DNA of 64,000 nt from Burkholderiales bacterium (GTDB taxonomy: Bacteria > Pseudomonadota > Gammaproteobacteria > Burkholderiales > Burkholderiaceae_C), in contig JACRAZ010000059.1 in NCBI GenBank assembly GCA_016213205.1, forward strand, positions 1 to 64,000, written 5' to 3'. The notes below the pieces were generated by a model. The model was not told where the DNA came from and made no database searches. It saw nothing but the letters and a program-made list of their open reading frames with translations. Of the stretch, positions 21,045-24,087 are shown one piece after another (the first letter of the stretch is position 1; each line of letters starts with the position of its first letter). A program made the translations under genes and the position numbers.

Positions 21045-21119
21045 AAACCCCCGAGCTCACTTCGTTCGCTGCCCCCCGAGGGGGAGCTCAGTACCTTCGG
21101 AACGGCCGGGCGGTACTGA
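21045..21119 (+). repeat. Dispersed palindromic repeat, start-codon-associated type, copy 1
   Basis: About 75 bases resembling the element at 24013-24087. It contains a CCCCC-GA-GGGGG hairpin (21073-21084) and a terminal hairpin whose arms TCAGTACC (21088-21095) and GGTACTGA (21112-21119) enclose a 16-base spacer identical in both copies. It ends two bases before the ATG of the hybrid kinase gene, so any RNA copy would fold right at the translation start. Confidence 0.75.
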
Positions 21120-21120
21120 C

Positions 21121-23982
21121 ATGGCGTGGCGCTGGCTGCACCGCGGCGTGCTGCTCGTGCTGCTGTGCTGCGCCGCGCGGGTGATGCCGGCGCCAGCCAC
21201 CGAGAGTGCCGCGCCGCACTACCGCTTCCGCCTGCCGCCGGGCCGCACCACGGTGCTGCCCGGGCGCGACCTGCTCGATGCGGCCGAGCGCGACTTCATC
21301 GCCGGGCTGCCCGAAGTCCGGGTGGGCCTGAACCTGCCGGACAACCGGCCGTACGAGGTGATCGGCCCGGACGGCGAGATCACCGGCATCCAGATCGAGA
21401 TCCTCACCCACATCGCGCAGGCGCTGGGGTTGCGGCTGAAGCCCGTGGTGCTGCCCAGTTTTCCGCAGGCGCTGGCAGCGGTGCGCGATCGCCAGGTGGA
21501 CATCATGGCCACGGTGGGCTTCGAGCCCTCGCGCGAGGCCTACATGGCCTTCACGCTCGGCACCGCGCCGAACCCGGGCGCGATCATCGGCCGCGCGGCA
21601 GACACGCGCTTTGCCAGCCACCCCTCGCTCAACGGCCAGCGGGTGGCGATCGAGAAGGACTACGTCACCCAGTACTACGCCCGCCGGCTGTACCCGGAGG
21701 TGCTGGTCACCGACCAGCCCGACACCGCGCACGCCCTGCGGGCAGTGGCGCTGGGCGAGGAGGACTACTACTTCGGCAGCCTGCTGATGGCGATGGACCG
21801 GATCCAGCGCGACGCGGTGGCAGGCCTGGAGGTGAAGAAGTCCCTGATCTACGCGACGGGCCAGATGCACTTCGGCGTGCGCAACGACTGGCCGCTGCTG
21901 GCCACCGCGCTGAGCAAGGGCGTGGCGGCCCTGCGCGCGGCGCCCCTGCCGCAACTGAACGCGGCGCTGCAATCGCTGGGGCCGCAGGGGCTGACGCTGC
22001 CGCAGGCGCTGAAGCTCGCCCGCGCCGAGCAGCAGCAACTGGCGGGCCGCAGCGTGCTGCGCGTGGGCGCGGTGCGTGGCCTCACGCTGCTGAACGAGGC
22101 GTTGCCCAAGGGCGGCCATTCCGGCATCGCGGCCGACTACACCAGCCAGGTCGTCGCCCGCCTGGGCGTGGCCGTCGACGTGCTGCCCTTCGACAGCGTG
22201 GCCGAGATGCTGGATGCCCTGCGCGAGGGCAGCATCCACGTGGTGCCCTTCCTGACCCGCACCGCCGCGCGCGAGCGCGAGTTCGCGTTCTCGCAGCCCT
22301 ACCTGGAGATGCCCTACCTGATCGTCGCGCGCACCGACGCGCCGCTGTACTGGGGCCTGGACAGCCTGCGCGGCAAGCGCCTCGCACTGGCCTTGCAACA
22401 CCCCTTGCGCGAACTGCTCGCGCAGCACTACCCGGACATCCGCGTCGTCGACGCCCGCAACGGCGAGGACGCGATGGACCGGGTGGCCCGCGGCGAGGCC
22501 GACGCGGCGGTGGAGGTGAAGCTGTTCGCCAACATGCGCATCAACAGCGATGCCGGCGGCCGCCTGCGTGCCGTGGCCCCGGTGGAGCAGCTGCCGGCGC
22601 AGTTCCACTTCGCCATCGCGCAGGGCGCGGCAGAGCTGGCGCCCCTGATCAACCGTGCGCTGGCCGACATCGCCCCCGAAGAGCGCGACCGCATGCTGCG
22701 CCGCTGGGTGGCCATCGACCTGCAGCCGGCCTTCCCGTGGCGCCGCTACCTGCCGATGGTGGCCACCGTGCTGGCGGCGCTGGCCCTGCTGGCCGTCGCC
22801 AGCGTGTGGTGGATGCGACGCCTATCGCGTGAAGTGACCGTGCGCCGTGGCCGCGAGGAACAGCTGCTGAACGCGATGCAGGCGCAGAACCTCTTTGTCG
22901 CCAGCGCCAGCCACGAGCTGCGCTCGCCGCTGCAGGCCGTGACCCTTGCGCTGCAGCACCTGGGCGACAGCGCGCTCGACAAGCCCCAGCAGCGGCTGTG
23001 GCAGGTGGCCAGCGATTCCTCGGCCTCGCTGGTGCAGCTGATCGACGATGTGCTCGACCTGGCCAGGCTCGAGGCGCGGCGCCTGGTGCTGCACCCGGTG
23101 CCGCTGGACCTGCGGGCGTTGCTGTCGCAGCTGGTCGACAACCACCGCCTGTCGGCCGACGCGCGCGGATTGCAGCTCGTGCTCGACTGGGACGAACGCA
23201 TCCCGCGCGGCCTGCAGGTCGACGCGCTGCGCCTGCGCCAGCTGCTGGTGAACCTGATCAGCAACGCCATCAAGTACACCCATGCCGGCACGGTCACGGT
23301 GCAGGCGCGCGCGCTGGGCGCGGCTGGCGACCAGACGCTGCAGATCGTGGTGCGCGACACTGGCATCGGCATTGCGCCCGAGCGCCAGCATGCGCTGTTC
23401 GAACCCTTCGAGACACTGCACCACCCCGCCCACGCGCCCGCCGAAGGCAGCACCGGCCTGGGGCTGGCCATCTGCAAGCGCCTGGTCGACGCGATGGGCG
23501 GCCGCATCACGCTGGACAGCGCCCCCGGCCGCGGCACCGAGGTGCAGGTGAGCTTGCCGATGCCGCCGCAGGCCGAACTGCCCCCGCCCCCCGCGCCGGT
23601 GCCGACGACGGCAGACCCCACCCGGGTGCTGCTGGTGGATGACGACGATGTCAGCCGCGTGCTGATGGCCGATGTGCTGCGCGGTGAAGGCCACGCCGTG
23701 ACCGAAGCGGCCACGGTGGCGCAGGCCCTGGCGGCCTGGCACGAGGCCCGGCCGGACCTGGTGCTGAGTGATCGCCACCTGCCCGACGGCGACGGCCTGC
23801 AGCTGCTGCAGCAGCTGGCCGGCCTGGCGCAAGCGGCGGGCCGCGCCGTGCGGCTGGTGCTGTGCAGCGGCAGCGAACCCGAGGCCGCGGGTTCGCTGGG
23901 GCCGGTGCATGCCGTGCTGCGCAAGCCGGTGCCGATGGGGCAGTTGCGGGCCCAGGCGGCCGCCCATCGCGGCACGGCCTGA
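21121..23982 (+). CDS. BvgS-like hybrid sensor histidine kinase with two Venus-flytrap domains
   Basis: 953 residues. A signal-peptide-like N terminus (LLVLLCCAARVMPA) is followed by two periplasmic solute-binding (SBP_bac_3) domains, about 60-290 and 315-535, one membrane segment near 546-567, a HisKA domain with His598 (ASASHELRSPLQAV), an HATPase domain (NLISNAIKY, DTGIGIAP, STGLGLAI) and a C-terminal receiver with Asp884 (LVLSDRHLPDGDG). There is no cytoplasmic PAS and no Hpt domain, unlike full BvgS/EvgS relays, so an Hpt protein or the receiver alone must finish the relay. No cognate output regulator follows; the previous gene is a FixJ-type regulator from another pair. Ligands are unknown. 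Confidence 0.88.
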   Translation: MAWRWLHRGVLLVLLCCAARVMPAPATESAAPHYRFRLPPGRTTVLPGRDLLDAAERDFIAGLPEVRVGLNLPDNRPYEVIGPDGEITGIQIEILTHIAQALGLRLKPVVLPSFPQALAAVRDRQVDIMATVGFEPSREAYMAFTLGTAPNPGAIIGRAADTRFASHPSLNGQRVAIEKDYVTQYYARRLYPEVLVTDQPDTAHALRAVALGEEDYYFGSLLMAMDRIQRDAVAGLEVKKSLIYATGQMHFGVRNDWPLLATALSKGVAALRAAPLPQLNAALQSLGPQGLTLPQALKLARAEQQQLAGRSVLRVGAVRGLTLLNEALPKGGHSGIAADYTSQVVARLGVAVDVLPFDSVAEMLDALREGSIHVVPFLTRTAAREREFAFSQPYLEMPYLIVARTDAPLYWGLDSLRGKRLALALQHPLRELLAQHYPDIRVVDARNGEDAMDRVARGEADAAVEVKLFANMRINSDAGGRLRAVAPVEQLPAQFHFAIAQGAAELAPLINRALADIAPEERDRMLRRWVAIDLQPAFPWRRYLPMVATVLAALALLAVASVWWMRRLSREVTVRRGREEQLLNAMQAQNLFVASASHELRSPLQAVTLALQHLGDSALDKPQQRLWQVASDSSASLVQLIDDVLDLARLEARRLVLHPVPLDLRALLSQLVDNHRLSADARGLQLVLDWDERIPRGLQVDALRLRQLLVNLISNAIKYTHAGTVTVQARALGAAGDQTLQIVVRDTGIGIAPERQHALFEPFETLHHPAHAPAEGSTGLGLAICKRLVDAMGGRITLDSAPGRGTEVQVSLPMPPQAELPPPPAPVPTTADPTRVLLVDDDDVSRVLMADVLRGEGHAVTEAATVAQALAAWHEARPDLVLSDRHLPDGDGLQLLQQLAGLAQAAGRAVRLVLCSGSEPEAAGSLGPVHAVLRKPVPMGQLRAQAAAHRGTA

Positions 23983-24012
23983 GTGCGGGCCTCGGCGACA
24001 ATCCCGCCCATG

Positions 24013-24087
24013 GTGCCCCCCTGCTTGCTTCGCTCGCAGCCCCCCAAGGGGGCGCTCAGAACCTTCGGAACGGCCGGGCGGTTCTGA
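24013..24087 (+). repeat. Dispersed palindromic repeat, start-codon-associated type, copy 2
   Basis: Same layout as the element at 21045: a CCCCC-AA-GGGGG hairpin (24041-24052), then arms TCAGAACC (24056-24063) and GGTTCTGA (24080-24087) around an identical 16-base spacer. Compared with copy 1, one base in each arm has changed so that pairing is kept. The last A of the element is the A of the thiL start codon. Confidence 0.75.

Follow-up and report, generated by a model that had tools for sequence, protein, structure and literature searches.

Our analysis revealed a dispersed palindromic repeat seated at gene starts in the genome of a Burkholderiales bacterium (assembly GCA_016213205.1), two copies of which lie in the window, the 64,000 nucleotides of contig JACRAZ010000059.1 analysed here. 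The best explanation, to which we assign a probability of about 0.7, is a mobile palindromic repeat resembling the Beta-proteobacterial repeat element (BRE), located at gene starts and carrying a mini-ORF that would be translated through, with reinitiation at the gene. We document the copy number, the placement at starts as compared with empty sites, an open frame that may be any of the three, and covariation in the stem.

The two 72-nt copies in the window (21048–21119 and 24016–24087, both on the plus strand) are 86% identical, each abuts an ATG, and together they form the largest direct-repeat family within 20700–24400; they match the covariance model at 101.8 and 100.9 bits. Each ends in an imperfect hairpin. 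In copy 1 (hairpin 21088–21119, +) the arms are TCAGTACC/GGTACTGA at 21088–21095 and 21112–21119, the right arm ending in the leader stop codon; in copy 2 (hairpin 24056–24087, +) they are TCAGAACC/GGTTCTGA at 24056–24063 and 24080–24087, and the 16-base spacer between the arms is identical in both. An earlier note on this DNA had described the two copies, their arms and spacer, a compensatory pair and the nearness to ATG codons, all of which proved to be as stated; it overlooked the gene-coupled mini-ORF. Exact occurrences of the 19-nt loop motif lie at both copies, with 0.19 occurrences expected at up to three mismatches (three more matches, each with three mismatches, lie in a different repeat). 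Given this excess and 38 BLAST matches across the genome, the copies are not a product of chance.

Both copies are spanned by a short open frame whose stop meets the next gene. The leader of copy 1 (21042–21119, +; ATG AAA CCC ... TAC TGA) encodes 25 codons plus stop (MKPPSSLRSLPPEGELSTFGTAGRY) and begins 1 nt after the TAG stop of an upstream ORF (20363–21040, +; response-regulator-like by eye). One nucleotide past both the leader stop and the end of the repeat, at 21121, is the ATG of a hybrid histidine kinase (21121–23982, +) with SBP_bac_3, HisKA, HATPase_c and Response_reg (receiver) domains, SBP_bac_3 being matched in two stretches. The leader of copy 2 (24010–24087, +; ATG GTG CCC ... 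TTC TGA) likewise has 25 codons plus stop (MVPPCLLRSQPPKGALRTFGTAGRF) and lies 7 nt after a −10-like box, GACAAT (23997–24002, +). Its stop overlaps the start of a thiL-like gene (24087–25058, +; AIRS/AIRS_C domains) as TGATG, the last base of the copy (24087) being the A of the thiL ATG.

The source genome (6.0 Mb, 109 contigs) yielded those 38 BLAST matches with a 72-nt query lacking start codons, at least 52 with a covariance model that includes the flanks and at least 50 with a core-only model, also without start codons. Two congeners carry at least 81 and at least 128 core-only matches, all 21 searched genomes of the genus carry matches (from at least 3 to at least 125 each), and a family-level search found them in at least 99 of 120 genomes and at least 98 of 119 genera; the copies share descent, and these counts are not counts of independent events. 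Start-linked copies also occur in records of Variovorax, Aquabacterium terrae, Rubrivivax, Roseateles, Pseudorhodoferax and Verticiella. The unit consists of the 72-nt core plus ATG-NNN, and a partial copy at mnmA in congener G134 is a 41-nt model match. Tandem arrays comprise three units at locus L012 and two each at L006, L007, L011 and L272, with periods of 75 nt (in frame, no stop) or 77 nt (coupled by TGATG). At L012:2023–2244 and L011:2050–2196, units of 75-nt period stay in frame through three and two copies, respectively, giving a longer leader ahead of the final stop/start overlap. The element is probably mobile. Plasmids and phages were rejected as vehicles, with the element found in 2 of 72,556 plasmid records (both Variovorax) and none of 50,697 phage records, and with one viral contig carrying the exact 19-nt motif; a plasmid copy inspected in its annotated record has no features listed at the site.

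The seating of the repeat at start codons, which the earlier note had drawn from two copies, is confirmed for the source genome. Of the 46 confident own copies, 44 have an ATG −4 to +8 nt from the core end that opens an ORF of 100 codons or more on the same strand, a placement shared by 594 of 10,400 random positions (5.7%); the two others are inner tandem units. For 45 of the 46, the distance between the core end and an ATG is 2 to 7 nt; the remaining one, an inner tandem unit, has none. This count leaves out six weak own matches (three in the window, L079, L080 and L012 on the minus strand). When a start within −4 to +20 was accepted, 136 of 155 elements qualified, compared with 32.5% of random positions, and 62 of the 155 also had such a start beyond their 5′ end, on the opposite strand. 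The 155 elements comprise 52 own copies, 80 from relatives and 23 from G134, G122 and one Variovorax record, of which 17 have a start within the stricter −4 to +8 range. Since start codons are part of the R1 model, the copies used to build R2 were start-linked and the relatives are represented by their best-scoring matches, the start-linked share across genera is biased upward.

Placement is looser further afield. Ten genomes of other genera, picked mainly for many but weak matches, gave 36 core-model matches in 29 loci. At the element edge, 12 of these show the ATG of an ORF of 100 codons or more in forward orientation and 6 a reversed one (two have both); the remainder have neither. Strict placement is therefore not a property of the wider family: the position bias proposed earlier stands for the own-genome copies and fails, in its strict form, for related repeats in these ten genera. 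A pattern scan of contigs, covering 80 of at least 118 stretches, gave 38 model matches, of which 26 have a start at the end, all among the 31 best-scoring; one of the stretches is labelled Desulfobulbus and possibly represents a misbinned contig. Weak matches in Achromobacter, Acidovorax and Hydrogenophaga showed no forward start link. In a Comamonadaceae MAG, reversed weak matches (L255:937–1012 and 3099–3147) overlap long ORFs on the opposite strand and are possibly in-frame coding insertions.

Among 20 downstream proteins, about half have their first Pfam domain starting no more than 8 residues from the post-element ATG; this set comprises mnmA, proC, dus, an RNase T-type exonuclease, an isocitrate/isopropylmalate dehydrogenase, a response regulator, and RidA-type, PUA, DUF2944 and GST proteins. 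The first domain begins later in the others, which are less informative on the start, and one has no Pfam match.

Congeners mostly lack the element at their thiL, mnmA, parE and proC orthologues, and these empty sites support spread by insertion at gene starts, one of the options raised earlier. A −10-like box precedes the ATG of thiL by 6–8 nt in 12 of 14 element-free congener loci (e.g. GACAAT), and a box lies ~6–8 nt before the gene-start ATG in 15 of 15 loci for mnmA, 13 of 13 for parE (CCTAGAAT, CCTACAAT and similar) and 17 of 18 for proC (TACACT and similar); these counts were made by eye, repeat rows of one locus were counted once, and parE excludes the paralogue rows L385 and L386. In the source genome the order at thiL is GACAAT, 7 nt, leader ATG, element, thiL ATG. 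Since the same box mostly stands before the gene's own ATG where the element is missing, we place the element precisely at the start codon. At the kinase site, both element junctions lie close to the flanking ORFs in the source genome, and in congener G011 (L365) the stop of the upstream ORF overlaps the kinase ATG, with the element lying between the two in the source genome. Other congeners are less clear at this site (TGATG at an upstream ATG in L367, a longer gap in L366), three of four loci being alignable and the alignments beginning at residue 11–13. G134 has its own elements at two of the genes occupied in the source genome, thiL (a different subtype) and mnmA (decayed; loci L129 and L191), which may reflect recurrent insertion into preferred genes, or old insertions that later changed. 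The thiL junction of an Aquabacterium terrae S2 record (L249) reads like that of G134.

Upstream of the 39 own copies with an ATG leader, we found a −10-like box in 18 and a long ORF ending nearby in 17, with 4 having both and 8 neither. Among the −10-like hexamers ahead of own leaders, 20 of 25 end 6–9 nt before the ATG, and one copy has a Shine-Dalgarno sequence before its leader (by eye). Leaders thus appear to take over the gene's own initiation signals, and transcripts that begin at such boxes would be leaderless.

Each copy forms a mini-ORF of ~25 codons, and the stop codon of this frame overlaps the gene start or lies next to it (TGATG, ATGA or TGANATG). We compiled 112 ATG leaders, 39 from the source genome and 73 from relatives, in 27 genome sets; dropped beforehand were 19 elements without a qualifying start, 11 with the start more than 8 nt away and 13 without an ATG leader (among them GTG leaders by eye, inner tandem units and weak matches). 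In 109 of the 112 the leader frame stops −4 to +5 nt from the gene start, while frames shifted by one or two bases end there in 2 and 11 of 112. The three uncoupled leaders (L113, L174 and the weak L075) read on in frame into N-terminal fusions, and in-frame insertion within the protein is not general, given that 109 leaders stop at the gene. Leader length is 24–28 codons in 98 of the 109, 33–37 with an inserted stem in 10, and 16 in one, counted from the nearest ATG. Longer variants of 34–37 codons with an extra middle stretch keep the coupling at L027, L028, L030, L033, L034, L036, L072, L074, L077 and L078.

Openness alone is weak evidence, because GC-rich DNA has few stops. A frame class could be assigned on both sides for 82 leaders, and these show nine pairings of 5′ and 3′ frame; class sizes are approximate, since 27 of the 109 are unplaced on one or both sides and the regular expression misplaces a few (L020). 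MVPPSSLRSQPPKGDIRTFGTAGRS, MYPQAHFVHCPPRGRSAPFGRPGGR and MKRPQAHFVRGPRGARQCLRAAGRH, each followed by a stop, are examples of peptides from different frames. It is therefore the coupling that is conserved and not the peptide. Where the junction lacks TGA, the gene begins with ATGA in 21 of 23 cases, versus 31 of 89 where TGA is present (p = 8e-7); such junctions are still coupled because the gene's own ATGA supplies the stop. Two genomes, G116 (7) and G118 (4), contribute 11 of the 23 TGA-less junctions, and with both excluded the counts are 10 of 12 versus 30 of 86 (p = 0.003). The decayed mnmA copy of G134 has lost its terminal hairpin and its leader still ends in TGATG (by eye). A functional leader peptide was rejected: a Pfam search of four leaders gave no match, and the frame is not conserved.

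Taken together, these data suggest the following scenario. A ~75–80 bp BRE-like palindromic repeat with ATG at both ends would insert exactly at a start codon, so that the gene's own signals (a −10-like box leading to a leaderless mRNA, or the stop codon of an upstream gene) would now start the mini-ORF, which spans the entire element, hairpins included, and ends on the displaced gene's ATG or usually within 2 nt of it. The translating ribosome would open the start-proximal hairpin, terminate at the leader stop and reinitiate at the gene ATG. Because the leader stop touches the gene start, ribosomes can probably cross the repeat and still make the protein. Copies would persist only where this passage works, and we propose that translation through the repeat, followed by reinitiation, is what allows it to remain at gene starts. 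A bolder and more tentative idea, which we consider possible with the odds against it, is a class of mobile elements whose target is the initiation codon itself and whose built-in ribosome relay keeps the gene from being silenced; copying or integration would then recognise the translation start itself, or else the 5′ ends of leaderless mRNAs together with operon stop/start junctions.

Preservation of the stem, argued in the earlier note from one compensatory change, is borne out by the wider alignment. In 27 own copies, standard pairs fill 94.3% of pair cells, and in 18 cells both sides have changed; 0 of 500 shuffles reached either value. Two other measures, 4 pairs altered on both sides and 15 further pair types, were equalled by 24 and 113 of 500 shuffles. 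The 98 distinct arm pairs comprise 686 arm positions, of which 640 are paired, compared with a shuffled maximum of 449 (146 of 193 elements had the motif used to locate the arms). Single-copy folding energy is unexceptional (z −0.6 to −1.5 in five copies), and the structural evidence is covariation, not stability.

Such covariation, with stop and start in or beside the stem, is what a cis-regulatory leader would show, that is, an attenuator or start-sequestering hairpin controlling a regulon, in which the start codon would be exposed or hidden as the mini-ORF is translated. A translated leader next to a hairpin is the usual anatomy of attenuation, and leader-peptide attenuators and translationally coupled uORFs, like the present repeat, place a short ORF ahead of a gene with stop and start overlapping. 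Here, however, one sequence stands before dozens of unrelated genes, and neither peptide nor frame is conserved. The downstream functions and domains have no common theme (tRNA thiolation, proline synthesis, a topoisomerase, nitrogenase-type proteins, peptidases), the congener orthologues of four of the genes are mostly element-free as described above, and an Rfam search of the window gave 0 matches at the gathering score, on which ground a known RNA family was rejected. We regard such a regulatory leader as unlikely, and the suggestion in the earlier note that a folded RNA could control translation, taken as a dedicated regulatory RNA, is not supported on the same evidence from downstream genes and congeners.

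The composition of the stem raises a second alternative, a REP-type element moved via single-stranded hairpins by a REP-associated or IS200-like Y1 transposase. G-T pairs make up just 11 of the 640 paired arm positions, which fits a DNA hairpin, and therefore the copying of a DNA palindrome explains the stem as well as RNA selection does; the palindrome is imperfect, with a near-invariant T-T opposite G-G in 26 of 27 copies. REP/RAYT elements are also short palindromic dispersed repeats with tandem forms, and have a conserved GTAG/GGAG tetranucleotide at the hairpin foot. By eye, however, no such foot is conserved in our alignment, and the present repeat differs further in being seated at gene starts in what appears to be a translated register. 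Y1_Tnp (PF01797) had no match in the copy-rich genomes G000, G134, G122 and G135; it was present in 9 of 21 genomes, some of them copy-poor (G126, G132, G133) and two with ~30 copies (G149, G131). Mobilisation of the REP/RAYT kind is accordingly disfavoured, and we give it a low probability. Little credence attaches, too, to an ordinary BRE scattered at random, its start bias being due to loss elsewhere or to short intergenic gaps leaving no room: related repeats in other genera often lack a start at their end, as this would predict, but the near-exact register of the own copies would require very strong selection after random insertion.

A BRE-like repeat that ribosomes would read through has partial precedents. 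BREs (Hot et al. 2011, PMC3110155) are GC-rich units of 75–91 bp at full length and ~40–60 bp when partial, forming tandem arrays of variable unit number from Bordetella to Comamonadaceae. They are usually intergenic, with some overlapping ORF ends and some within coding sequence; their mobility is suspected, and the section describing them offers no function and calls for further study (PMC3110155). Our repeat resembles them in its size, partial forms, tandem arrays, high GC content, suspected mobility and Betaproteobacterial range including Comamonadaceae, whereas the BRE section of that paper names no start-codon register, mini-ORF, stop/start coupling or covariation (PMC3110155). Kinship, judged from the published description, is probable. 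The records examined that are nearest to Bordetella are Alcaligenaceae, with Verticiella copies at 52–64 bits and a weak Achromobacter match (L232, 31 bits). The closest parallel in concept comes from the coding palindromes of Rickettsia and Wolbachia, palindromic repeats that likewise tolerate translation in a variety of housekeeping genes. They are described as insertions kept in frame within the protein (PMC2996958), whereas the present repeat forms a separate coupled mini-ORF ahead of the gene, in any frame. Among the open-access titles and abstracts searched, none described a start-codon register with a coupled frame.

If our interpretation is correct, translation through the repeat allows it to occupy the most sensitive site of a housekeeping gene while the gene stays active, and a candidate explanation would be at hand for a family whose 2011 description assigned it no function. 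The copies would also provide a natural series of dozens of near-identical leaders, some probably on leaderless mRNAs, for studying termination-reinitiation, and gene starts in such genomes may be mis-annotated.

Also in the window is another GC-rich hairpin repeat, distinct from the first, whose motif CCGCGGGGGTGCGCCGGCCGCTTCGGAGCGGCC occurs on the minus strand at 27100–27132, 34655–34687 and 34739–34771, three copies at up to three mismatches where none is expected.
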